DNA from: Verrucomicrobiales bacterium
GTDB lineage: Bacteria > Verrucomicrobiota > Verrucomicrobiia > Verrucomicrobiales > DEV007
Assembly (NCBI GenBank): GCA_016795505.1
Contig: JAEUHH010000102.1
Location: 1 to 64,000 of the forward strand
Length of the DNA stretch: 64,000 bases
Direction of reading: 5' to 3'
Part shown: one piece after another, positions 17,232 to 27,717 of the stretch
Position numbering within the stretch: the first letter of the stretch is position 1
Layout: the number at the start of each line of letters is the position of its first letter
Made by a program: the position numbers and the translations under genes
Notes under the pieces: generated by a model
Databases searched by the model: none
What the model was told of the DNA's origin: nothing
Seen by the model: only the letters and a program-made list of their open reading frames with translations

Positions 17232-19385
17232 ATGAGTATCGAAACCATCAAGTGCCGGATCGGCACCCAGGAAGTGACCCTCGAGTCGGGCAAATACGCC
17301 AAATTGGCGGACGGCGCCGTGACCCTGCAGGTCGGAGAAACCATCGTGCTGGTCACGGCCGTCTCGGCCACCAGCGTCAAGGAAGGGCAGGATTTCTTCC
17401 CGCTCTCCGTCGAATACAAGGAAAAGGCCGCTGCTGCGGGCCGTTTTCCGGGCGGCTACTTCAAGCGCGAAGGCCGGCCGACCGAGAAGGAAATCCTTAC
17501 CTGCCGCATGACTGACCGTCCGCTGCGACCGCTCTTCCCGAAGGGCTACTACTACGACACCCAAGTCGTGGCCCTGCTGCTGAGTGCCGACGGTGAGAAC
17601 GACGCCGACATTCTGAGCATGAACGGCGCCTCCGCTGCCCTGCTCATCTCGGACATTCCCTTCGCCGGTCCCATCGGTGCCGTGCGTGTGGGCCGGGTGA
17701 ACGGCCAGTTCGTCGCCAACCCCACCTTCACCGAGCGCGCCGAGAGCGATCTCGACCTGGTCTATGCCGGTCTGCGCGACAAGGTGATCATGATCGAAGG
17801 CGCCGCCCAGGAGCTGACCGAGGCTGAGTTCAAAGCCGCCCTGGAGTTTGCCCAGCAGGCCATCCAGCCCGTGCTCGACGCCCAGGAAGAGCTGGCCCGC
17901 CGCGTGGGCAAAGCCAAGCGCGTCGTCGCCCTCAAGGACGTGCAGGACGACTTGCTGGAGATCGCCTACCAAGTCGCCGGCGACCGCATCGAGGACGCCC
18001 TCTACAAGCCCAGCAAGGTTGAGCGCGGCAAGGCCGTGAAGGCCCTGAAGGACGAAGTTGACGCCGCCATCAAGGCCAAATACCCCGAGGCCGGCTCCTT
18101 CGAGATCGGTCAGGCTTTCGATTATCTGCAAAAGAAGGCTTTCCGCATCAGCATTCTGGAGAAAGGCCATCGCTGCGACGGCCGCGACTCCGATACGATC
18201 CGCCCGCTGTCGGCCGAGATCGATCTGATGCCCCGCACCCACGGCTCGGCCCTGTTCGCCCGCGGTGAGACCCAGGCTCTGGCACTGGCGACCCTCGCGC
18301 CGCTGGACGAGAAGCAGTTCGTCGACAATTACGCCGGCGGCGAAGACACCAAGCGCTTCCTGTTGCACTACCACTTCCCGCCGTTCAGCGTGGGCGAGAC
18401 CGGCCGCATGGGTGGCCTGAATCGCCGCGAGATCGGCCACGGCGCCCTCGCCGAGCGCTCCATCGAGCCCATGCTGCCCGGTGAAGATGTTTTCCCCTAC
18501 GCCCTGCGCGTCACCAGCGAGGTGATGGAGTCCAATGGCTCCACCTCCATGGCCTCGGTCTGCTCCGGCACCATGGCCCTGCTCGCCGCCGGCGTGCCGA
18601 TGATCCGCCCTGTCGCCGGGATCTCCTGCGGCCTGGTCACCGAATACGACGAAGCCGGCACCCTGAAGCAGTACCGCACCCTGATCGACATCATCGGCAG
18701 CGAGGACCACTTCGGCGACATGGACTTCAAACTTTGCGGCACCAGCGAAGGCATTACCGGCTACCAGCTCGACCTCAAGCTGCCCGGCATCCCGCTGAGC
18801 ATCCTGTTCGAAGGCATCGACAAGGCCGCCAAAGGCCGCCTGCAGGTCCTCGACGTGATGAATGCCGTCATCTCCCAGCCGGCCAAGCTCAGTGAGCACG
18901 CGCCCCGCATCGAGACCGTGCAGATCGATCCCAGCAAGATTGGCGACCTCATCGGACCCGGCGGCAAGCACATCAAAGGCATCCAGGCCGAGACCGGCGC
19001 CGAGATCAGCATCGAGGACGACGGCCGCGTGCACATCTACGCCGCCAAGAAGGAAGCCCTCGAGCGCGCCATCGAACTGGTCCGCAACCGCACCGCCGAG
19101 ATCGAGATCGGCCGCATCTACCACGGCAAGATCGTCTCCGTGACCAACTTCGGCGCCTTCGTCGAAGTGCTGCCCGGCAAGGACGGCATGATCCACATCT
19201 CCGAGCTGGCCGACTTCCGCGTCGGTCGGGTCGAGGACGTCGTCAAGGTCGGTGACATGGTTTACGCCAAGTGCATCGGCATCGACGAGAAAGGCCGCGT
19301 CAAGATGAGCCGCAAAGCCGCCATGGCCGAGCGCGCCGTCGCCGCCGGCAAGGAACTCGGCAACGACGAAGAAGACCGCGGCTGA
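17232..19385 (+). CDS. pnp: Polyribonucleotide nucleotidyltransferase (PNPase)
   Basis: The product is 717 residues, the usual length. Two RNase PH domains are present: the first carries GRFPGGYFKREGRPTEKEIL, and the second RTHGSALFARGETQ and TGRMGGLNRREIGHG. A KH domain (SKIGDLIGPGGKHIKGI) is followed by a C-terminal S1 domain (GKIVSVTNFGAFVEVLPG). The enzyme degrades RNA 3' to 5' using phosphate and takes part in mRNA turnover. The start is the ATG at 17232, preceded by an A-rich stretch with little Shine-Dalgarno character. A strong intrinsic terminator follows at 19461-19520. Confidence 0.98.
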   Translation: MSIETIKCRIGTQEVTLESGKYAKLADGAVTLQVGETIVLVTAVSATSVKEGQDFFPLSVEYKEKAAAAGRFPGGYFKREGRPTEKEILTCRMTDRPLRPLFPKGYYYDTQVVALLLSADGENDADILSMNGASAALLISDIPFAGPIGAVRVGRVNGQFVANPTFTERAESDLDLVYAGLRDKVIMIEGAAQELTEAEFKAALEFAQQAIQPVLDAQEELARRVGKAKRVVALKDVQDDLLEIAYQVAGDRIEDALYKPSKVERGKAVKALKDEVDAAIKAKYPEAGSFEIGQAFDYLQKKAFRISILEKGHRCDGRDSDTIRPLSAEIDLMPRTHGSALFARGETQALALATLAPLDEKQFVDNYAGGEDTKRFLLHYHFPPFSVGETGRMGGLNRREIGHGALAERSIEPMLPGEDVFPYALRVTSEVMESNGSTSMASVCSGTMALLAAGVPMIRPVAGISCGLVTEYDEAGTLKQYRTLIDIIGSEDHFGDMDFKLCGTSEGITGYQLDLKLPGIPLSILFEGIDKAAKGRLQVLDVMNAVISQPAKLSEHAPRIETVQIDPSKIGDLIGPGGKHIKGIQAETGAEISIEDDGRVHIYAAKKEALERAIELVRNRTAEIEIGRIYHGKIVSVTNFGAFVEVLPGKDGMIHISELADFRVGRVEDVVKVGDMVYAKCIGIDEKGRVKMSRKAAMAERAVAAGKELGNDEEDRG

Positions 19386-20021: not shown

Positions 20022-20885
20022 TCACCGACGAGCCAGCACGAACGTCTGCAAGCCGGTGGCATCGTGGCTGAATGTCACGTTCGACCAATGCATCTCTGAG
20101 AAGATGGCGCGCACTTCGTCGACATTGCGGTAGTGGGTGTCAAGTTCGAAGGCCCGGAGCAAATAGTCGCTGCCCTCTTCGCGGTTGGTGGCGCTAGTGA
20201 AAAAAACGCCACCCGGTCGTAGAACGTCAAACACGCAGCGGTAAAATACCCGCAACTGGATGTCGTCGAGGAATTCGCCGAGACCGGTGCTGACCACGAT
20301 GTCCTGCGGTGGTTCGGGATAATCGGATTTGTTGAGCGCGTCGCCACGTCGAAACTCGGCGCGGGCGAGCATCCCGGGCATCTCGGTAGCGAGATGCACC
20401 CGGGCGGCGTCCAATACGACTGGATCAATGTCCATGCCAACGTAACGGAGCGCCGCTACGTCGCCACTGAGGCGGGAAATGTCCCTGGGAATTCCACAAG
20501 GTATGGCGAGTACGCTGACCGTTTCCTCATGACCCACGATGTCGAGCGCCTTGCGGATGACGCGCTCCGATTCCACGGCACGTTGCCGCATTCCTTGTGC
20601 GGCTCGAGTATTGAGCAGCACGCGGTCAAGAATTGCGCCGATGAGGCAACGACCCGAGGCGCGGTTCCTGTAAAGGTGGTCAGCGAAGCGATAACTGCCG
20701 CTGTGATCGATGGCTTCGCGGGCGAGATCGCTCAATCGCATGAGCCAATAGATGGGAATGAGGTGCCACCGACCGTCGCGGCGGAATTTGGCGACGAGAT
20801 TGCCGGTGCGGCGTGTCAGATTGTGCGGCCGAAAGTCAGCCACCGACCCGGCCGAGGCCGGGGAGTTCGTTAATGCGGTGTTCAT
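20022..20885 (-). CDS. Class I SAM-dependent methyltransferase (last gene of carrier-protein cluster)
   Basis: The product is 287 residues from the ATG at 20885, or 293 from 20903. The SAM-binding region is recognisable around VLAIPCGIPRDIS (motif I), YVGMDIDPVVLDAA (motif II with the acidic residue), DIVVSTGLGEFLDD (motif IV) and VFDVLRPGGVFFTSA (post-motif region). The usual E/DxGxGxG of motif I is replaced by IPCGIPRD, as in a divergent class I subgroup. The gene overlaps the end of the upstream diiron gene by about 50 bases, so translation is probably coupled. By context it should methylate the cluster product or a carrier-bound intermediate; the acceptor cannot be read from sequence. Confidence 0.8.
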   Translation of the reverse strand: MNTALTNSPASAGSVADFRPHNLTRRTGNLVAKFRRDGRWHLIPIYWLMRLSDLAREAIDHSGSYRFADHLYRNRASGRCLIGAILDRVLLNTRAAQGMRQRAVESERVIRKALDIVGHEETVSVLAIPCGIPRDISRLSGDVAALRYVGMDIDPVVLDAARVHLATEMPGMLARAEFRRGDALNKSDYPEPPQDIVVSTGLGEFLDDIQLRVFYRCVFDVLRPGGVFFTSATNREEGSDYLLRAFELDTHYRNVDEVRAIFSEMHWSNVTFSHDATGLQTFVLARR

Positions 20886-21393
20886 AAGGTTGGATTTCGT
20901 CAAAAACTTGCTGGTCGATAATACGGAAACGTTTTAGGCAGGCGGCGGCTCCAGGCCGGCCGCGGAGCCAGCCCGCCACCCATCCGAGATGGTCTCTTTC
21001 ATCATCAATCATGCGGGCCAGCGCTTCCCGAACGGGTTCGGGCTGGTCGGCTTCGTTTAACTCATCCTGGAACCGTTGATGCACGCGCCGCTCGAAAATT
21101 TGAGTGAAGCACAACACTTCGAGCAACGAAGCCGGTGGTCCGCTATGACTCAGGAAAAAACTCTGATAGCTGCGATGAATGCGTATATGGGGCATGCCGC
21201 AGCGATGGATGGCGTCGGCCCAGAGGCGGGCATGCTCGGCCTCCTCGGCGGCATGGCGGGTAAGTCGTCTGCAAAGTTCTCCGTCCTCCGCCAGTCCGGC
21301 CATGCGGCCCAGCAGTAGGGCTCCTTCTAGTTCACTTTGGCGATACCAGTTCAGCCGCCAGGCGAGATTGTCTTTCGTGTTCATGACTTTCAC
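20836..21393 (-). CDS. Ferritin-like diiron protein 2 of the carrier-protein cluster
   Basis: The product is 185 residues from a GTG at 21393 whose bases overlap the upstream TGA, or 182 from an ATG at 21384. The sequence is helical and shows a complete four-helix diiron pattern: Glu23 in SELEGALL, E51-x-x-H54 in EEAEHARLW, Glu101 in QIFERRVHQRF, and E132-x-x-H135 in DDERDHLGW. This resembles MiaE- and rubrerythrin-related ferritin-like enzymes that activate O2. Its place between another diiron-like protein and a methyltransferase suggests oxygenation of a carrier-bound or released intermediate. The substrate is unknown; an iron-storage role is unlikely in this operon. Confidence 0.75.
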   Translation of the reverse strand: MKVMNTKDNLAWRLNWYRQSELEGALLLGRMAGLAEDGELCRRLTRHAAEEAEHARLWADAIHRCGMPHIRIHRSYQSFFLSHSGPPASLLEVLCFTQIFERRVHQRFQDELNEADQPEPVREALARMIDDERDHLGWVAGWLRGRPGAAACLKRFRIIDQQVFDEIQPYEHRINELPGLGRVGG

Positions 21394-22106
21394 GCGGCTT
21401 GGATGTCGGCGAGCCTGCTGGACATTTTTCTGCCGGTCAGTCGCTCGATCTTACGGTTGATGGCCAGGATGGCGGCAAAATCGTTTTTCTGAGCCACTGG
21501 TGTGGTGGGCAGGACCAACTCGCCGATGTGCTGGAAATGGATCGCTTCATCGAGCACATCGTCGATCTCCTCGGGATGGTGCGCCAAGCGCAGCGCGAGC
21601 AGATCGCATCCGAACTGGCAGTGCCGCACCTCATCCTTCGCGACGAGATGCAGGATGTGGGCGAGCACCGGGTCCAGCGCCTGTTTTGCGTCCTTAAAGA
21701 AGTGATGGGCGGCGAAGTGTTCGCTCATAAGATACCGCGTCAACAGACGGGCAGGATGGTCAAAGTGCAGGCCAGTCTGGCGGCGGCGGATGGCCACGAC
21801 TTCCTCATCCCGAATCGGCCGGTAATCCACAGCGGCGAGATACTGGGCAAAAACGTGAAAATGCTTGTAGCTCTCGTATAGCTGGACGCTGAAGATGGCG
21901 GTGCTTGTGACACAATCCCACATCAGGTCCAGCACGCGGGGAGTGAAGATGGGAAAAAAGGACTCGATCAACGCCGAGTCTCGGACGCGGTCCAGCAAGT
22001 CGGGCTGTGAGAGTGAGAGTCCGGGCTGGATGTCGTCCCAAGCGATGTCGGTGTCGAGAATCCAGCGGGTCATCTCTGATGTGGTCAGGTAATCTCCGTA
22101 GTTCAT
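21390..22106 (-). CDS. Ferritin-like/AurF-like diiron protein 1 of the carrier-protein cluster
   Basis: The product is 238 residues, all-helical by composition. Candidate metal ligands are Glu78 and His82 in LYESYKHFHVF, Glu129 and His134 in SEHFAAHHFF, and E159-x-x-H162 in AKDEVRHCQFGCDLL. The last motif is the clearest and is typical of diiron oxygenases such as AurF-type N-oxygenases and ferritin-like proteins. The start ATG at 22106 overlaps the carrier-protein stop as ATGA. Next to an amino acid:carrier-protein ligase, a reasonable guess is oxidation of a carrier-bound aminoacyl group, for example at nitrogen or carbon. The assignment to a named family is tentative. Confidence 0.6.
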   Translation of the reverse strand: MNYGDYLTTSEMTRWILDTDIAWDDIQPGLSLSQPDLLDRVRDSALIESFFPIFTPRVLDLMWDCVTSTAIFSVQLYESYKHFHVFAQYLAAVDYRPIRDEEVVAIRRRQTGLHFDHPARLLTRYLMSEHFAAHHFFKDAKQALDPVLAHILHLVAKDEVRHCQFGCDLLALRLAHHPEEIDDVLDEAIHFQHIGELVLPTTPVAQKNDFAAILAINRKIERLTGRKMSSRLADIQAA

Positions 22107-22345
22107 TGTGTCGTCACGGTGGTGATTTTTTGGGCGATGACGCCGGTCAGGGTGTCGAGCGTCATGGTGGGTGAAAATTCAGATTCGGCGATGCGCACTC
22201 CGAACTCCTCATGGATCGCACAGAGCAGTTCCACCGTGTCCATGCTGTCTAGGCCGAGTTCGTGTAGGGGAGTTTCTGCGCGAAATTGAGGCGCGAGGCG
22301 CGGCAGACAATGCCGCAGGTGGTCGAGTATTTCTTTGGTGTTCAT
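22103..22345 (-). CDS. Acyl/aminoacyl carrier protein 2
   Basis: The product is 80 residues with the carrier-protein fold signature: an N-terminal helix, then LHELGLDSMDTVELLCAI, where the Ser of DSM is the phosphopantetheine site. It starts with an ATGA overlap on the ligase gene immediately upstream. That adjacency makes it the most likely acceptor of the amino acid activated by the ligase. It needs a phosphopantetheinyl transferase, and none is visible in the window. Confidence 0.9.
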   Translation of the reverse strand: MNTKEILDHLRHCLPRLAPQFRAETPLHELGLDSMDTVELLCAIHEEFGVRIAESEFSPTMTLDTLTGVIAQKITTVTTQ

Positions 22346-23061
22346 CTCAGTGAAGATGCGGTAACCCAGCGTTCCAGCCCGAATGCCACGCAGGCACTGT
22401 GGGCGGGCTTCCCATCGGTCAGGGATATTTGAAAGCGCCCCCCGAAAAAATCGCGGTGGCGGTTGATGCTCGCGATCGACAGCCCATCGGCCAGTGTGAA
22501 CTCAATCTTTGTCTTCAGCAGGCGCTGCAGCGCTGCCTTGGCACGCGACTTCGTTTGGGGTAGGAAGAAGGGATCAGTCGCCTCCTCCCACCCACCTTCG
22601 ATGCCGAGTTCGCGTGCCAGTCGCCCGATATCGTCCCGCATCGTGCCAAGTCTGCGGTCGATCCACTGTGGAGCGCCAATGAAGATCAGTTCACGCATCT
22701 GAAATTCAATCTGTCGGCGGCCTGGCATTAGCGTGGCGGGATCTTCGCGTCGGAAGCAACGCCCTCGGGCGGCCAAGACTATCCCGCCTTCCGGGTCCGT
22801 CAGCGTATGCCGATGTAGCGAAGCGTAAGCATGATAGCAGACCGCGGGGGATAGATCGTAGTCCGTGGCGGCGAGATGTTCGACCGGCCATCCCGGTCGC
22901 TCGTTGGCTGCTGCCGTCATGAGGAGATGGGGGAATGATTCATAGTAACCGGCCAGCCGCAGGGTGGTCCGCGGAATCAGCGCTGGCCAATCTTTCTCTT
23001 CGGCTTCAAGGCCCAGTGACCAGTCACGCAATCGGGCATCAATGGTTTCAATGGGATTCAT
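22342..23061 (-). CDS. Amino acid:[carrier protein] ligase (atypical seryl-tRNA-synthetase-like, class II aaRS fold)
   Basis: The product is 239 residues with a class II aaRS catalytic core and no tRNA-binding domain. Motif 2 is GRCFRREDP (residues 100-108) and motif 3 is ACVAFGLERW (223-232). Cys75, Glu124 and Cys224 are spaced like the three zinc ligands of methanogen-type SerRS and of the characterised Bradyrhizobium amino acid:carrier-protein ligases. Those enzymes activate a small amino acid such as glycine or alanine and load it onto the phosphopantetheine of a stand-alone carrier protein. The gene lies between two carrier-protein genes with 4-bp overlaps on each side, which supports this role strongly. 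Amino acid identity cannot be read here. Confidence 0.85.
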   Translation of the reverse strand: MNPIETIDARLRDWSLGLEAEEKDWPALIPRTTLRLAGYYESFPHLLMTAAANERPGWPVEHLAATDYDLSPAVCYHAYASLHRHTLTDPEGGIVLAARGRCFRREDPATLMPGRRQIEFQMRELIFIGAPQWIDRRLGTMRDDIGRLARELGIEGGWEEATDPFFLPQTKSRAKAALQRLLKTKIEFTLADGLSIASINRHRDFFGGRFQISLTDGKPAHSACVAFGLERWVTASSLR

Positions 23062-23324
23062 GTGAACGCGTCTAAAATGGTGGAAATGCTATGGAAGTGT
23101 TTCATGTTGACCAGATGATCAGGAACCGGCATGCCAGTGTGCTCCTCGATCGTGCCGATCAGGTGTAGGATGGCGAGGCTGTCAACGATGCCGTGCTCGA
23201 AAAGTGGCGTGTCGCTTGTAACCGCCGAGTAGACTCGCGATGGACGCAGCGCGGGAAGCACTTCATTCACGAGACGAAGCAGGGCGCTTTCAAGCTCGGG
23301 CGTGGATGTGTCGGTGGAGGACAT
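23058..23324 (-). CDS. Acyl carrier protein 1
   Basis: The product is 88 residues from the ATG at 23324; an ATG at 23336 is an alternative. The recognisable core is LFEHGIVDSLAILHLIGTIEE, with the phosphopantetheine Ser in VDSL, followed by VPDHLVNMKHFHSISTILDAF. The open frame extends much further upstream, but that part is the out-of-frame reading of the SDR gene. The start overlaps the SDR 3' end by about 35 bases, and the stop overlaps the ligase start as ATGA. The divergent sequence relative to carrier protein 2 suggests a different partner, possibly the KAS III-like protein or the reductase. Confidence 0.85.
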   Translation of the reverse strand: MSSTDTSTPELESALLRLVNEVLPALRPSRVYSAVTSDTPLFEHGIVDSLAILHLIGTIEEHTGMPVPDHLVNMKHFHSISTILDAFT

Positions 23325-24249
23325 AGCGGGTGACATGTGAAACAAGTGTGCGCCAGTCAGAGTGCGCAGGTTCGCAAATGGCGTCTGCGCCCGCCGTGTC
23401 ATAGATGCGGGGGAATGACAGGGCTGGGAGAAAGTACTTCGCGTCGGAGAGTACGCGCTGGAACAACAGATCTCCGCTCTGCGCCACCGTCTCCCCGAAC
23501 AGGGCGAACGTCTTTCCATCCACCAGCTCCGGAGGCATGATCGAGCCACGCCGCCACGTGGCGGACAGGCCCGCGAACTCCCCTGCCAGGTGTGCGAGGA
23601 GCTCCCCCAAGGCAGGAGCACGGAGCCCCGCGCACGCGTGCAGAACCGGTGGGACATCTCGTGCCAGAGCTGCCGCTACGATCAGCCGCCCTGCATGTTC
23701 GGTTGAAATCAGATCGACTTTCGCCTCTGCGCTGCCCGGTATCATGGGGACCAGGCCCTTCCACAGCCAAAACAGCAGGTGATGAAGCGCGCCCGGCCGA
23801 AGCACACGCCCGTCTGTCTCGCCCCCGGCCGCCGTCGAGAGTCTTACGATCGTAGACGGCAACCTGCTCCTGGCGACCAAATCCTCGGCTTCCCATTTAC
23901 TACGTTCGTAATCATTCACGAATCTCGATGGTCGGGGCAATGGGGCCTCGTGGATCAGACCGGAGGCTGCGCCGCAAACGCAGGCTGTGCTGATATGCAC
24001 GAAACGCCGCAGCCGTGGACAAGCCTCCGCGAAATCGAGCAATTTTTTCGTCAACAACACGTTTGCCGAATGCAATTCCTCCCACGGCGCGCGAAACGCG
24101 GTCAATGCCGCGCAGTGAATGATGATCTCGCAGTCCTTCGCTGCTACGGGATCGTCGCCGCGAGCTAGTTCCACCACCCGATATCCGCGCAACTGCCGGG
24201 CGACTTCGCTTCCGATGTTGCCTGTTACTCCGGTCAGCAAAATGGTCAT
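23290..24249 (-). CDS. Thioester-reductase-like NAD(P)-dependent SDR (epimerase/NAD_binding_4 type)
   Basis: The product is 319 residues from the ATG at 24249, which overlaps the KAS III-like stop as ATGA; a longer frame to 24291 adds unconserved residues. The N-terminus is an extended-SDR Rossmann motif (ILLTGVTGNIGSEVARQL), followed by VHISTACVCG and the catalytic YERSK (YxxxK). The layout resembles stand-alone versions of the terminal reductase domains of NRPS and carboxylic acid reductases. In this cluster it could release a carrier-bound acyl or aminoacyl chain as aldehyde or alcohol. A plain sugar-epimerase-like dehydrogenase is the alternative. Confidence 0.8.
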   Translation of the reverse strand: MTILLTGVTGNIGSEVARQLRGYRVVELARGDDPVAAKDCEIIIHCAALTAFRAPWEELHSANVLLTKKLLDFAEACPRLRRFVHISTACVCGAASGLIHEAPLPRPSRFVNDYERSKWEAEDLVARSRLPSTIVRLSTAAGGETDGRVLRPGALHHLLFWLWKGLVPMIPGSAEAKVDLISTEHAGRLIVAAALARDVPPVLHACAGLRAPALGELLAHLAGEFAGLSATWRRGSIMPPELVDGKTFALFGETVAQSGDLLFQRVLSDAKYFLPALSFPRIYDTAGADAICEPAHSDWRTLVSHVTRYVLHRHIHARA

Positions 24250-25235
24250 GATAGCACGAGGTCGGTGGTTTCCAACAGCATCGCGGACCAACTCGATCCG
24301 AATCCGTAAGCAAAGAGTAGTACCCTCATACCCGGCCGTAGGATTCCCGCAGCGAAAGCTTGCTCGAGGTACAGAAAGCTGTCCGCCGATATCGTGTGTC
24401 CGAATCGCACCGTGGGCGCGAACAAGCGATCCTCGGCAATGGAGCAGAGGCGCATCAGGATAGGCCAGGACAGTGCGTTCACTCCCGTGGGAATTACCAG
24501 GTCGACATCCCTCGGACGACAGCCCGACTGACTGAGTGTTTGCCGAATCGTTGCTGCGGCGGTGGGGAAATATGCCGCTACGATCTCACTCTGGCGGTTC
24601 GGCACATCCCAATACCAGCCTTTTGATACTTGATGCTGGCCCAGCCAACGATAGCGGGCATTTTCACGAGAGACGACCACCGCGCTAGCGGCGTCGCTGA
24701 TCACATTGTAGAGCACCTCGCGACCCGCGCCCGGAGGAAATGCATCAGCGCCCACGCAGAGTATGTGATTCAGCGCGGGCTCGGCTAGGAGCAGCGCTCG
24801 GGCCTGCCGCAGCGCCGCGAACATGCCCGCGCAGCCCTGCTGCGCTATTCCGCAGACGAAGGCCCTTTCAAGTCCCAATTCCTCCTGAGCCCAACTCCCT
24901 CGGTAGCAAAACTGACTGAGCAATGGATCGGCTTCTGGGTGGGTGCTGGCCCGGCCATGCCCGTCAGGCAGAGATCCTGCCCAGAACAGCGCGTCTATAT
25001 CGTCCGCCCGGAGCCCGGCTTCCGCGATCACCGCCCCCGCTGCCTTCACGGCGAGTGCGGAAACGTCATCACAAATCCAGGCGCCATCGAATCCGAAAGC
25101 AGTTAGATTCTCTGCGGGGGACAGATTACGCAGTTCGCTGAGAGGAACGTAACGATCAGGCAGCAATGATCGATGCGCGCGAAGGCCAATCGAGGATATG
25201 AGTTTGCCGGAGCCGACATTATTCATGACGGCCAT
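24246..25235 (-). CDS. KAS III-like (FabH-fold) enzyme with altered catalytic triad
   Basis: The product is 329 residues with a thiolase-fold N-terminal half and a C-terminal FabH-type end (MRVLLFAYGFGSSWSAMLLE). The nucleophile is Cys135 in QQGCAG. The His of the family PHQAN motif is Thr250 (IPTGVNALS) and the Asn of GNT is His280 (FGHTISADS). Loss of the standard Cys-His-Asn triad argues against ordinary decarboxylative condensation and for acyl transfer, as seen in some KAS III-like acyltransferases, or an unusual condensation. It is the first gene of the minus-strand cluster. A second in-frame ATG lies at 25226. Confidence 0.8.
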   Translation of the reverse strand: MAVMNNVGSGKLISSIGLRAHRSLLPDRYVPLSELRNLSPAENLTAFGFDGAWICDDVSALAVKAAGAVIAEAGLRADDIDALFWAGSLPDGHGRASTHPEADPLLSQFCYRGSWAQEELGLERAFVCGIAQQGCAGMFAALRQARALLLAEPALNHILCVGADAFPPGAGREVLYNVISDAASAVVVSRENARYRWLGQHQVSKGWYWDVPNRQSEIVAAYFPTAAATIRQTLSQSGCRPRDVDLVIPTGVNALSWPILMRLCSIAEDRLFAPTVRFGHTISADSFLYLEQAFAAGILRPGMRVLLFAYGFGSSWSAMLLETTDLVLS

Positions 25236-25544: not shown

Positions 25545-26837
25545 TCAACCCTCCCCGTAGGCGCGGGCGATTTCTTCGGCCAGAATGGCGATGCCGCGGC
25601 GGACGGTGTCCTCGCTCTGGGTGTGGCTGAGACGCAGGCATTCGTGGCTGTGGGGCCAGTCAGCGGTGTCGAGGCCGTAGAAAAAGGATTCGCCGGGGAT
25701 GATGAGGGTCTTGCGGGCTTTGAGGCGCTGGTAGAGTTCGCGGGTCGGGATGGGCAGGTGCTCGCACCACAGCCAGAGGAAGAAGGCGCCTTCCGCACGG
25801 TGGACCCGCCAGGGGAGGTCGGCGGGCAGGCTGCGGTGCAGGCAGTCGAGGGCGAAGTCGGCTTTGGCCCGGTAGAAGGGGCGGATCAGGTCGCGGCTGA
25901 TCCGCAGGATGTCGCCGGACTCCATGAGCGGCCGGGTGAGGGCCTGACCGATGTTGTTGTTGGCGAGGCTGGTGATGGCATTGATGGCGGACAACTCCTC
26001 GATGATGTCCTCGCGCGCGACGACGATGCCGGTGCGGGTGCCGGGGAGACCGAGCTTGCTGAGGCTGAGGGAGAGGATGATGTGGGGCTCCCAGACGGGG
26101 GCGGCATCTTCGAAAATGACGCCGGGAAAGGGCACCCCGTAGGCATTGTCGATGAGCAGGGGCACGCCTCGCTCCCGGGCGAGGGCGCTGAGGCGATCGA
26201 TCTCGGGTCCGGTGAGGACGTTGCTGCTGGGATTGGTGGGCCGGGAGATGGCAATGGCGGCGATGTCGTCGGTGAGCGCGAGGCGGTCGAAATCGATGTG
26301 ATATTTGAAGCTGTGATCGCCAATAAGTTCGATGGCGGGGCGCCGGGCGGTGAACAGGTCGGCGCCGACGGCTTGATCGGCATAGCCGATGTATTCGGGC
26401 ACCAGCGGCAGCAGGATACGGCGGTGGCTGCCGTCGTCGAAATCGCCGGCGAAGCGGTTGAACAGAAAGAAAAACGCGGTTTGACCACCGTTGGTGACGG
26501 CGATGTTTTTCGCGGTGAGCGGCCAGCCAAACGTGCGCTGCAACAGGTCCGCGACGGCGGCGCGGAAGCCGGGATGGCCGGCCGGCTGATCGTAGTCGCC
26601 GAGCATGGCATCGAAGGCCGGGGCGTCGGCCAGCAGTTCGGTCATGCGTTGGCGCCAGAGGGCCTGGATCTCGGGGATGTGGCCGGGATTGCCACCGCCC
26701 ATCATGAGCAACTCACCGCGCCCGGTGGTCATGGCCTCACCGAGATCCTCCATGAGTTGGACGGTGCCGGTGCGGCGGGCCAGATTGTGGCCAAAGCGGC
26801 TGCGCGGCCAAAAGGGGACTGGGGGGAGATCGCTCAC
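25545..26837 (-). CDS. avtA: Valine--pyruvate aminotransferase (AvtA-type PLP enzyme)
   Basis: The product is about 430 residues if translation starts at the GTG at 26837. That start gives the N-terminus FWPRSRFGHNLARRTG, which aligns with the start of E. coli AvtA. Residues match AvtA closely along the length: LMEDL, GGGNPGHIPE, EYIGYADQAVG, SRPTNPSSNV, LIDNAYGVPFPGVIF, the PLP lysine in LSLSKLGLPGTRTG, and EGAFFLWLWCEHLPI. The enzyme moves amino groups between valine/alanine and their keto acids in the cytosol. The frame stays open far upstream, but that part is not conserved and overlaps the preceding gene. Confidence 0.92.
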   Translation of the reverse strand: MSDLPPVPFWPRSRFGHNLARRTGTVQLMEDLGEAMTTGRGELLMMGGGNPGHIPEIQALWRQRMTELLADAPAFDAMLGDYDQPAGHPGFRAAVADLLQRTFGWPLTAKNIAVTNGGQTAFFFLFNRFAGDFDDGSHRRILLPLVPEYIGYADQAVGADLFTARRPAIELIGDHSFKYHIDFDRLALTDDIAAIAISRPTNPSSNVLTGPEIDRLSALARERGVPLLIDNAYGVPFPGVIFEDAAPVWEPHIILSLSLSKLGLPGTRTGIVVAREDIIEELSAINAITSLANNNIGQALTRPLMESGDILRISRDLIRPFYRAKADFALDCLHRSLPADLPWRVHRAEGAFFLWLWCEHLPIPTRELYQRLKARKTLIIPGESFFYGLDTADWPHSHECLRLSHTQSEDTVRRGIAILAEEIARAYGEG

Positions 26838-26904
26838 GAAATCCGGAAATGGCCCGTCGGGGCGGGGCACGAGTCGATCCGGCAGGCGGGCCGGAGAGGG
26901 GAGG

Positions 26905-27717
26905 TCACGGGATCTGGCCTTCGATAACCTCGAAGCCGTTGGCGCGCAGGACGATGATGCCGTCGGCGGACCGCGGCTGGACGAAGCTGTTGCCGGCGGT
27001 GAGAGTGGGGCCTCCGGCGAGGATGAGCCGGCCACCGGCGGGGTCGTAGGTGGCCTGGGTGGCGTGGGCGACCTCCAGCAGTCCGGCGGTGGTGCGTTTC
27101 TCCACCCGAATGCCCTCGCCGTGGGCGACGAAGGCATTGACGGGCGCATCGGCTTCGTCGCCGGCGGCGGTCAGCTCGATGCGATCGGCGGTGAGGATGA
27201 AATCGGGGTGGTGCAGCACCACATCGCCCTCATAGAGCAGACGGCCGGGAGCCGGGTGCGACTGCGATTGCGCCGAGACGGACACGACGGCGAGGGAGAG
27301 GGGGAGGTCGGTTGCGGAAGCCGGAAGTGGGGCGATCTGACCGGCCGGGGCGGGCAGGTCGGTCTGGACGGTGGCGGTGACGGTTTCGGGAGCGAGCGAG
27401 ACGAGGCGATGGGTCTGGCTGGCGCGGGACTGCGGGGCCACGGCGCGCTGGGAAAGGAACAGGCCGAGGACGGTGAGTGACAGGGCGACGATGGCGGCGA
27501 TCTGGAGCCAATCGCGGCGGGAGGTGGCGCGGGGACGCAGGCGGGGGGCGGCGAACTCGACGGTGGCGAGGGGCCGCGCGACGGTGCGGGCGCGGATGGA
27601 GGCGAGGAGGCCCTCGTCGTCGAGATTGCCGAGCCGCGCGTGTTCGCGGAGCAAGGCATCGACCAAGTCGTCCGGGGCAGGGGACTTGGGGCCGGTATCG
27701 GGATCGCTGGGAGTCAT
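26905..27717 (-). CDS. Single-TM protein with LptA/OstA-like periplasmic segment, paired with an ECF sigma factor
   Basis: The product is 270 residues from the ATG at 27717, which overlaps the sigma-factor stop as ATGA. The N-terminal 60 residues are soluble and charged (DDLVDALLREHARLGNLDDEGLLASI), as in verrucomicrobial/planctomycete anti-sigma-like proteins. One membrane segment follows at about 70-90 (LQIAAIVALSLTVLGLFL). The C-terminal half has repeated short strands like LptA/OstA (GDVVLHHPDFILTADRIEL, ATYDPAGGRLILAGGPTL). The gene position suggests control of the sigma factor from the envelope side. The LptA resemblance is by pattern only; whether it binds lipopolysaccharide is unknown. 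Confidence 0.65.
   Translation of the reverse strand: MTPSDPDTGPKSPAPDDLVDALLREHARLGNLDDEGLLASIRARTVARPLATVEFAAPRLRPRATSRRDWLQIAAIVALSLTVLGLFLSQRAVAPQSRASQTHRLVSLAPETVTATVQTDLPAPAGQIAPLPASATDLPLSLAVVSVSAQSQSHPAPGRLLYEGDVVLHHPDFILTADRIELTAAGDEADAPVNAFVAHGEGIRVEKRTTAGLLEVAHATQATYDPAGGRLILAGGPTLTAGNSFVQPRSADGIIVLRANGFEVIEGQIP

Follow-up and report, generated by a model that had tools for sequence, protein, structure and literature searches.

A compact verrucomicrobial operon suggesting an NRPS-free, carrier-protein-tethered amino-acid pathway

What pathway might be encoded where an aaRS-like ligase lies among two carrier proteins, two ferritin-like proteins and a thioester-reductase-like enzyme in a Verrucomicrobiales genome? 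In the window, the whole 64,000-nt stretch of DNA analysed here, an ORF and coordinate check places eight overlapping genes on the minus strand at 20022–25235, in the order KAS III-like protein, SDR, carrier protein 1 (CP1), ligase, carrier protein 2 (CP2), ferritin-like proteins 1 and 2 (diiron 1 and diiron 2) and methyltransferase; family assignments bear out this order, as given in a preliminary description of the locus. Neighbouring genes overlap by 4 bp at five junctions (KAS/SDR, CP1/ligase, ligase/CP2, CP2/diiron 1 and diiron 1/diiron 2), and the two longer overlaps, put at about 35–50 bases in that description, are 35 bases (SDR/CP1) and 50 bases (diiron 2/methyltransferase). With all seven junctions overlapping, the proposal of a single translational unit is supported.

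The full operon, in identical order, is observed in four other Verrucomicrobiota genomes (L011–L014), and a MAG contig that ends inside the operon (L015) carries everything except most of the KAS gene, the start of which is lost. Five copies are thus complete and the sixth ends within KAS, with four families represented. Such conservation of eight genes in the same order shows that this is not a chance array. The operon is nevertheless sporadic, being missing from nearly all relatives of the genomes that carry it. In samples of ~385 genomes, matches to the ligase and to diiron 1 fall in exactly the same five genomes, the co-occurrence of ligase and ferritin-like genes for which the preliminary description had advised a search. 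All five genomes tested encode phosphopantetheinyl transferases. Conservation does not extend to any transporter, regulator or resistance gene, and secretion of a natural product would therefore be conjectural.

An aminotransferase gene upstream (25545–27149) was considered as a ninth member and rejected, as it lies ~310 bp away and does not adjoin the operon in L011–L014 (L015 ends there). Congeners have gat genes after the aminotransferase gene and different genes again after pnp, and these differing neighbours indicate that the junction in the window is rearranged and is not a simple insertion. An Rfam scan gave no match, promoter matches were no more frequent than in shuffled sequence, and a terminator scan gave 9 matches against 5.4 expected.

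The ligase (22342–23061, minus strand; a short form of 239 aa) had been described as SerRS-like, with the zinc ligands of amino acid:carrier-protein ligases, and both points hold: it matches NF005479 (1.3e-32) and Bll0957 (PDB 3mey, 1.5e-21), an alignment of five operon ligases with 3mey shows Cys75, Glu124 and Cys224 to be invariant, the L015 ligase has these residues too, and the motif-2 R104 and motif-3 R231 are invariant across the same five. A single core-domain match extends over the 239 aa, corresponding to a class II core without a tRNA-binding domain or arm, and the protein looks like a retired tRNA-charging enzyme that now couples an amino acid to a carrier protein. Its score of 113 bits against the curated NF005479, where the cut-off is 357, makes it a relative outside the curated equivalog. 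In a tree of aaRS-like amino acid:carrier-protein ligases the operon ligases form a distinct short clade, whose nearest neighbour is a clade from Streptomyces and Tistrella (sister-clade support 80/91, moderate). The sister-clade ligases lie mostly inside AurF-type diiron oxygenase–carrier protein–ligase cassettes (L040, L042 and L043), which makes this a recurring module, while the diiron enzymes of one group show no detectable closeness to those of the other. In S. clavuligerus, also a member of the sister clade, no diiron gene is annotated within the stretch read.

Which carrier protein would the ligase load? CP1 (23058–23324, minus strand; the end is 23058 and the start at 23324 is probable, set by homologue starts) matches PP-binding (2.9e-6) with a DSL/DSM phosphopantetheine site, and CP2 (22103–22345, minus strand) matches PP-binding (2.2e-9) with a DSM site and is nearer to the AcpP-type ACPs of fatty-acid synthesis (TIGR00517, 8.9e-9). 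Against an HMM of carrier proteins adjoining such ligases elsewhere, CP1 scores 44–49 bits and CP2 16–30 bits. This resemblance favours CP1 as the likelier partner, in place of CP2, which had been put forward for loading assays. The best named-family match of CP1 is the ornithine-lipid carrier protein OlsHI, and one might accordingly imagine that the KAS III-like protein and CP2 supply a fatty acyl group for the amino acid, yielding a membrane aminolipid instead of a secreted metabolite. Such a product would be consistent with the absence of a conserved exporter and with a hydrophobic N-terminal extension on the L014 methyltransferase; however, the OlsHI match is weak (31.5 bits, far under the cut-off of 130), the extension occurs in one methyltransferase only, and the operon contains no Ols- or PlsC-type acyltransferase, making a modified lipid distinctly unlikely.

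The KAS III-like acyltransferase or condensing enzyme (24246–25235, minus strand; Pfam ACP_syn_III_C, 6.6e-16) was aligned with FabH structures and with its homologues. Cys135 is invariant, whereas Thr stands in for the FabH His (VIPTGVN; in L014 the residue is Asn) and an invariant His280 for the FabH Asn (FGHT), so that the FabH-type Cys-His-Asn triad is not present. As the Cys is kept and both the FabH His and Asn are lost, a transacylase role would fit better than decarboxylative condensation.

Neither ferritin-like protein reaches a Pfam cut-off, and the assignment is based on invariant motifs and weak matches to several diiron families, joined in diiron 2 by a confident structure model; profile comparison detects no relation between the two. 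Diiron 2 (20836–21393, minus strand) has a complete and invariant set of metal ligands in alignments (E21, E51xxH54, E101 and E132xxH135; four Glu and two His). Its AlphaFold2 model (pLDDT 90.4) best matches aldehyde-deformylating oxygenases (VIA Z 17.1, rmsd 2.7, 169 residues), as would be expected if the reductase made an aldehyde that diiron 2 then deformylated, in the manner of the cyanobacterial acyl-ACP reductase and aldehyde-deformylating oxygenase. MiaE and a phenylacetic-acid-degradation-like protein (both Z 16.2) are, however, tied with these matches within 1 Z unit, identity is ~14%, and a common fold is no proof of function; an alkane- or amine-type route of this kind therefore seems very improbable.

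Diiron 1 (21390–22106, minus strand), of the R2/acyl-ACP-desaturase superfamily, is the most conserved protein of the operon (57–84% identity by tblastn). Against the acyl-ACP desaturase family PF03405, each of the six proteins gives an E of 0.1 or lower (lowest 0.0047; the window protein scores 14.4 bits, cut-off 22.7), a Cupriavidus relative passes the cut-off, and there are weak matches to PF00268. A plasmid search returned one weak Cupriavidus match, in whose surroundings no genes of the cluster were recognised, and no relatives were found among viral contigs. A search of genome contigs, seeded by exact peptides and hence liable to miss distant copies, found a further copy in L015 alone. 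A structure model built from the window and L015 sequences only had a pLDDT of 35 and was left unused. The residues observed are E48, S79 (with E78), H82, E129, E159 and H162, placing Ser79, with an invariant Glu78 beside it, where the metal Glu of the second-helix ExxH is expected. With one canonical Glu ligand missing, diiron 1 may be no diiron oxidase at all; the earlier view of two diiron proteins thus stands for diiron 2, with its full ligand set, and carries a caveat for diiron 1.

Would such proteins oxidise carbon or nitrogen? N-oxygenases of the FDO type are reported to have, as a distinguishing feature, a seventh His that precedes the last metal Glu by four residues (PMC13061610). 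His occupies this position in the L040, L042 and L043 oxygenases, and Val155 and Met128 occupy it in diiron 1 and diiron 2, respectively. Both miss the gathering cut-off of PF11583 (AurF), with weak matches in one of six diiron 1 members (best E 0.063) and one of five diiron 2 members (0.00042). Judged by sequence, the AurF type of N-oxygenase is represented by neither of the two proteins. The pair might instead turn a carrier-bound amine into a hydroxylamine, oxime or nitro group, with release by the reductase as a signal or metallophore, as in the ham pathway (valdiazen, fragin). That pathway offers a precedent with the same tether-oxidise-reduce logic (PMC11659414), and sister-clade ligases adjoin AurF-family oxygenases, with nitronate monooxygenases in two of three such loci. 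We consider this unlikely given the missing seventh His, scores below the AurF cut-off and an operon that has no nitronate monooxygenase. The absence of the seventh His from both proteins and the Ser in place of a metal Glu in diiron 1 make C-oxidation more likely than N-oxidation; the suggestion that the amino acid is oxidised hence stays plausible, with oxidation at nitrogen disfavoured.

The two remaining proteins would complete a tethered route. The thioester-reductase-like SDR (NAD_binding_4; 23290–24249, minus strand) has a Pfam match (4.7e-24) and a match to Thioester-redct (TIGR01746, 8.4e-20; 71 bits, below the curated cut-off of 213), and its TGVTGNIG (TGxTGxxG) motif at 6 and YERSK (YxxxK) motif at 114 are intact and kept in four aligned homologues. 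The class I SAM methyltransferase (Methyltransf_20; 20022–20885, minus strand; Pfam 6.7e-11) is kept in all six operons, that of L014 alone bearing the N-terminal hydrophobic extension.

We think it probable that these eight genes encode a stand-alone pathway that works without an NRPS on a thioester-held amino acid; such NRPS-free logic had already been proposed for the locus and is supported here. The SerRS-like ligase would use ATP to activate a small amino acid and load it onto CP1, where both ferritin-like proteins would oxidise the carrier-bound substrate, with desaturation or hydroxylation at carbon likelier than attack on nitrogen. Diiron 1, with its altered ligand set, would serve either as a partner subunit or as an oxidase with an unusual cofactor. 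The KAS III-like enzyme, through a Cys-His dyad, could then shuttle the acyl group between CP1 and CP2 or, alternatively, join the substrate to an acyl group supplied by CP2, before reductive cleavage by the thioester reductase sets free an aldehyde or an alcohol for the methyltransferase to cap. The sequences themselves show the gene content with its order and conservation, the intact ligase motifs, the likeness of CP1 to ligase partners and the altered residues of the KAS III-like protein and diiron 1; from these we infer each reaction, the succession of steps, the kind of amino acid and the nature of any product, and more than one reaction order is compatible with the gene set. A bolder proposal, which we advance tentatively and with rather more doubt than belief, is that the aaRS-derived ligase in place of an NRPS, a KAS III-like Cys-His transacylase bridging two carrier proteins and a Ser-for-ligand ferritin-like protein that performs or enables a new oxidation of a carrier-bound amino acid together constitute a natural-product assembly of a new type. 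As a source of natural products, Verrucomicrobia have received little attention. With eight genes in 5.2 kb the operon is a minimal, self-contained setting, and since two lineages link such ligases with diiron enzymes, the idea that the ligase supplies a diiron enzyme with its substrate can be tested directly.

The open-access full texts searched yielded no described pathway or cluster with the same eight genes, as had been anticipated, and we infer that the pathway is new. Bll0957-type ligases (PDB 3mey; NF005479) share with the operon ligase the catalytic core, zinc ligands, motifs, an adjoining carrier-protein gene and the lack of a tRNA-binding domain, whereas the operon ligase is N-terminally shorter, falls in a separate clade and has other gene neighbours; Bll0957-like copies in related Verrucomicrobia lie beside a carrier protein, an acyl-CoA dehydrogenase and other genes and are distant from the operon ligases. 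The Streptomyces/Tistrella cassette (L040, L042, L043), of which no published description was found in the open-access literature, has the nearest ligases, each immediately preceded by an ACP gene and adjoined by a diiron enzyme, but that enzyme is a true AurF family member with the seventh His, a nitronate monooxygenase is present in two of three loci, and neither a thioester reductase nor a second ferritin-like protein lies alongside. In azaserine biosynthesis, as set out in the portion of the source consulted (PMC13274452), the 3-oxoacyl-ACP synthase AzsD acts as a carrier-to-carrier transferase, passing a nitrogenous acyl group between carrier proteins much as proposed here; the pathway differs in its hydrazine chemistry, its loading by AzsP and its later NRPS, and that portion describes no aaRS-like SerRS-type ligase. 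The ham (valdiazen/fragin) and pvf systems differ in that loading and reduction both fall to an NRPS (HamD), the oxygenase resembles AurF and the ham cluster lists no KAS III-like gene, while their overall logic is close to that proposed for the operon, with an amino acid held on a carrier (valine in ham), oxidised by a diiron enzyme and released by a reductase (PMC11659414).

The operon lies on the minus strand at 20022–25235, where the preliminary description had placed it and in the order given there: KAS III-like protein, thioester-reductase-like SDR, carrier protein CP1, SerRS-like ligase, second carrier protein CP2, ferritin-like proteins DI1 and DI2, and methyltransferase (MT). Five of the seven junctions are indeed 4-bp overlaps, while the other two, put at about 35–50 bases, measure 50 bases (DI2/MT) and 35 bases (SDR/CP1), the latter assuming that CP1 starts at 23324, the position pointed to by its homologues. 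Overlaps or near-overlaps are kept at the junctions in most operon copies. The G+C content of the operon is about 59%, against 65–70% in some flanks. Its flanking genes are pnp (17232–19385) and an AvtA-like aminotransferase gene identified by eye (25545–27149); in congeners the gat genes come after the aminotransferase gene.

A ligase search gave matches in 5 of 388 genomes of the phylum, the window genome included, and the other four each carry the complete gene set in unchanged order. The suggested co-occurrence with ferritin-like genes was upheld, as a DI1 search of 384 genomes of the class returned exactly the same five. Order, family and genus searches added only an Akkermansiaceae MAG, whose 5-kb contig starts within the KAS gene and keeps the remaining genes. 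DI1 is the best-conserved protein of the operon (57–84% identity to the window copy, versus 43–69% for most others), and a phosphopantetheinyl transferase is present in each of the five genomes tested. Occurrence is rare and patchy, the operon being found in one of 48 genomes of one genus and in none of three congeners of the window genome, which suggests horizontal transfer or repeated loss. Empty-site comparison with congeners revealed a rearranged junction in the window, the operon-flanking genes lying elsewhere in the congeners.

The closest named relatives of the ligase are the amino acid--[ACP] ligase family NF005479 (1.3e-32, 113 bits, below the cut-off of 357) and Bll0957 (PDB 3mey, 1.5e-21). 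All three zinc ligands claimed for it are kept, as are the motif 2/3 arginines. The six operon ligases form a single clade (support 100/99) in a 20-ligase tree, with Streptomyces and Tistrella plasmid ligases as a moderately supported sister group (80/91). Identity with the Bll0957-like ligase of other Verrucomicrobia was rejected; that ligase sits with a carrier protein and acyl-CoA dehydrogenase. Its loci (L033–L036), a second, only distantly related ligase locus of Verrucomicrobia, contain acyl-CoA dehydrogenase, beta-mannosidase-like and alpha/beta-hydrolase-like genes (by eye), and a carrier protein in L033–L035. At three further loci (L044, L048, L049) aaRS-like ligases adjoin genes for ACP, 3-hydroxyacyl-CoA dehydrogenase and acyl-CoA dehydrogenase; such a combination may be reminiscent of aminomalonyl-ACP formation.

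Three of the four sister loci, on Streptomyces and Tistrella plasmids, encode, in this order, an AurF-family diiron oxygenase, an ACP and a short ligase of the aaRS-like type (L040:7824–10772, L042:7691–12001, L043:7777–9777). This arrangement supports the view that ligases of this kind feed diiron enzymes. The cassette, of which we found no description in open-access full text, suggests a carrier-tethered N-oxidation route; in L040 and L042 a nitronate monooxygenase gene comes next after the ligase. The fourth locus, on S. clavuligerus plasmid pSCL4, departs from this layout: its short-form ligase, together with a carrier-like protein that is annotated as hypothetical (L041:8929–10185), adjoins a phosphopantetheinyl transferase, with a condensation-domain gene nearby.

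We infer all the reactions of a pathway in which the ligase would load an amino acid onto CP1, DI1 and DI2 would oxidise it there, the KAS III-like protein would transfer or join it via CP2, the reductase would release it and MT would cap it. In one copy (L014:11226–12494) a long, hydrophobic extension at the N-terminus lengthens MT to 422 aa, versus about 285, suggesting attachment to the membrane.

CP2 had been proposed as the ligase's partner, a role that the comparison of carriers did not bear out. Against an HMM built from 12 carrier proteins adjoining aaRS-like ligases elsewhere, the six CP1 score 44–49 bits and the six CP2 16–30; diiron-cassette carriers alone give 22–37 versus 1–12. 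Because of these scores, and because CP1 immediately precedes the ligase as the ACP does in the cassettes, CP1 is the likelier partner. CP2 resembles fatty-acid ACPs more closely (35 bits against TIGR00517) and could be the carrier for the transferred or acyl partner.

DI2 has the complete canonical ligand set (E21, E51xxH54, E101, E132xxH135), and the structures that best match its confidently predicted model are aldehyde-deformylating oxygenase (Z 17.1) and, effectively tied with it, MiaE and a phenylacetic-acid-degradation-like protein (both 16.2). DI1 matches no family above cut-off; all six members weakly match acyl-ACP desaturases, and a distant relative from Cupriavidus (tblastn E 4e-3) passes that family's cut-off (31.5 bits). 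In alignment with this relative, DI1 retains His82 of the second-helix ExxH but carries Ser79 in place of the expected Glu, next to an invariant Glu78. According to PMC13061610, every ferritin-like diiron oxidase has six ligands, with a seventh, a His, in N-oxygenases. The Streptomyces and Tistrella oxygenases possess this His; in the alignment it is absent from DI1 (Val155) and DI2 (Met128), so that C-oxidation is favoured over N-oxidation.

Aligned to FabH structures, the KAS III-like protein keeps Cys135, with Thr (Asn in L014) for the catalytic His and His280 for the catalytic Asn. A putative Cys-His dyad that lacks the FabH pair speaks against the usual decarboxylative condensation. AzsD of azaserine biosynthesis (PMC13274452) is a precedent for a carrier-to-carrier role, and the two carrier proteins of the operon are compatible with such a step. 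No described pathway with this eight-gene set was found in open-access full text, to which the literature check was confined, so an earlier description may exist in a subscription journal. The operon's logic parallels that of ham/pvf (PMC11659414), with the NRPS replaced.
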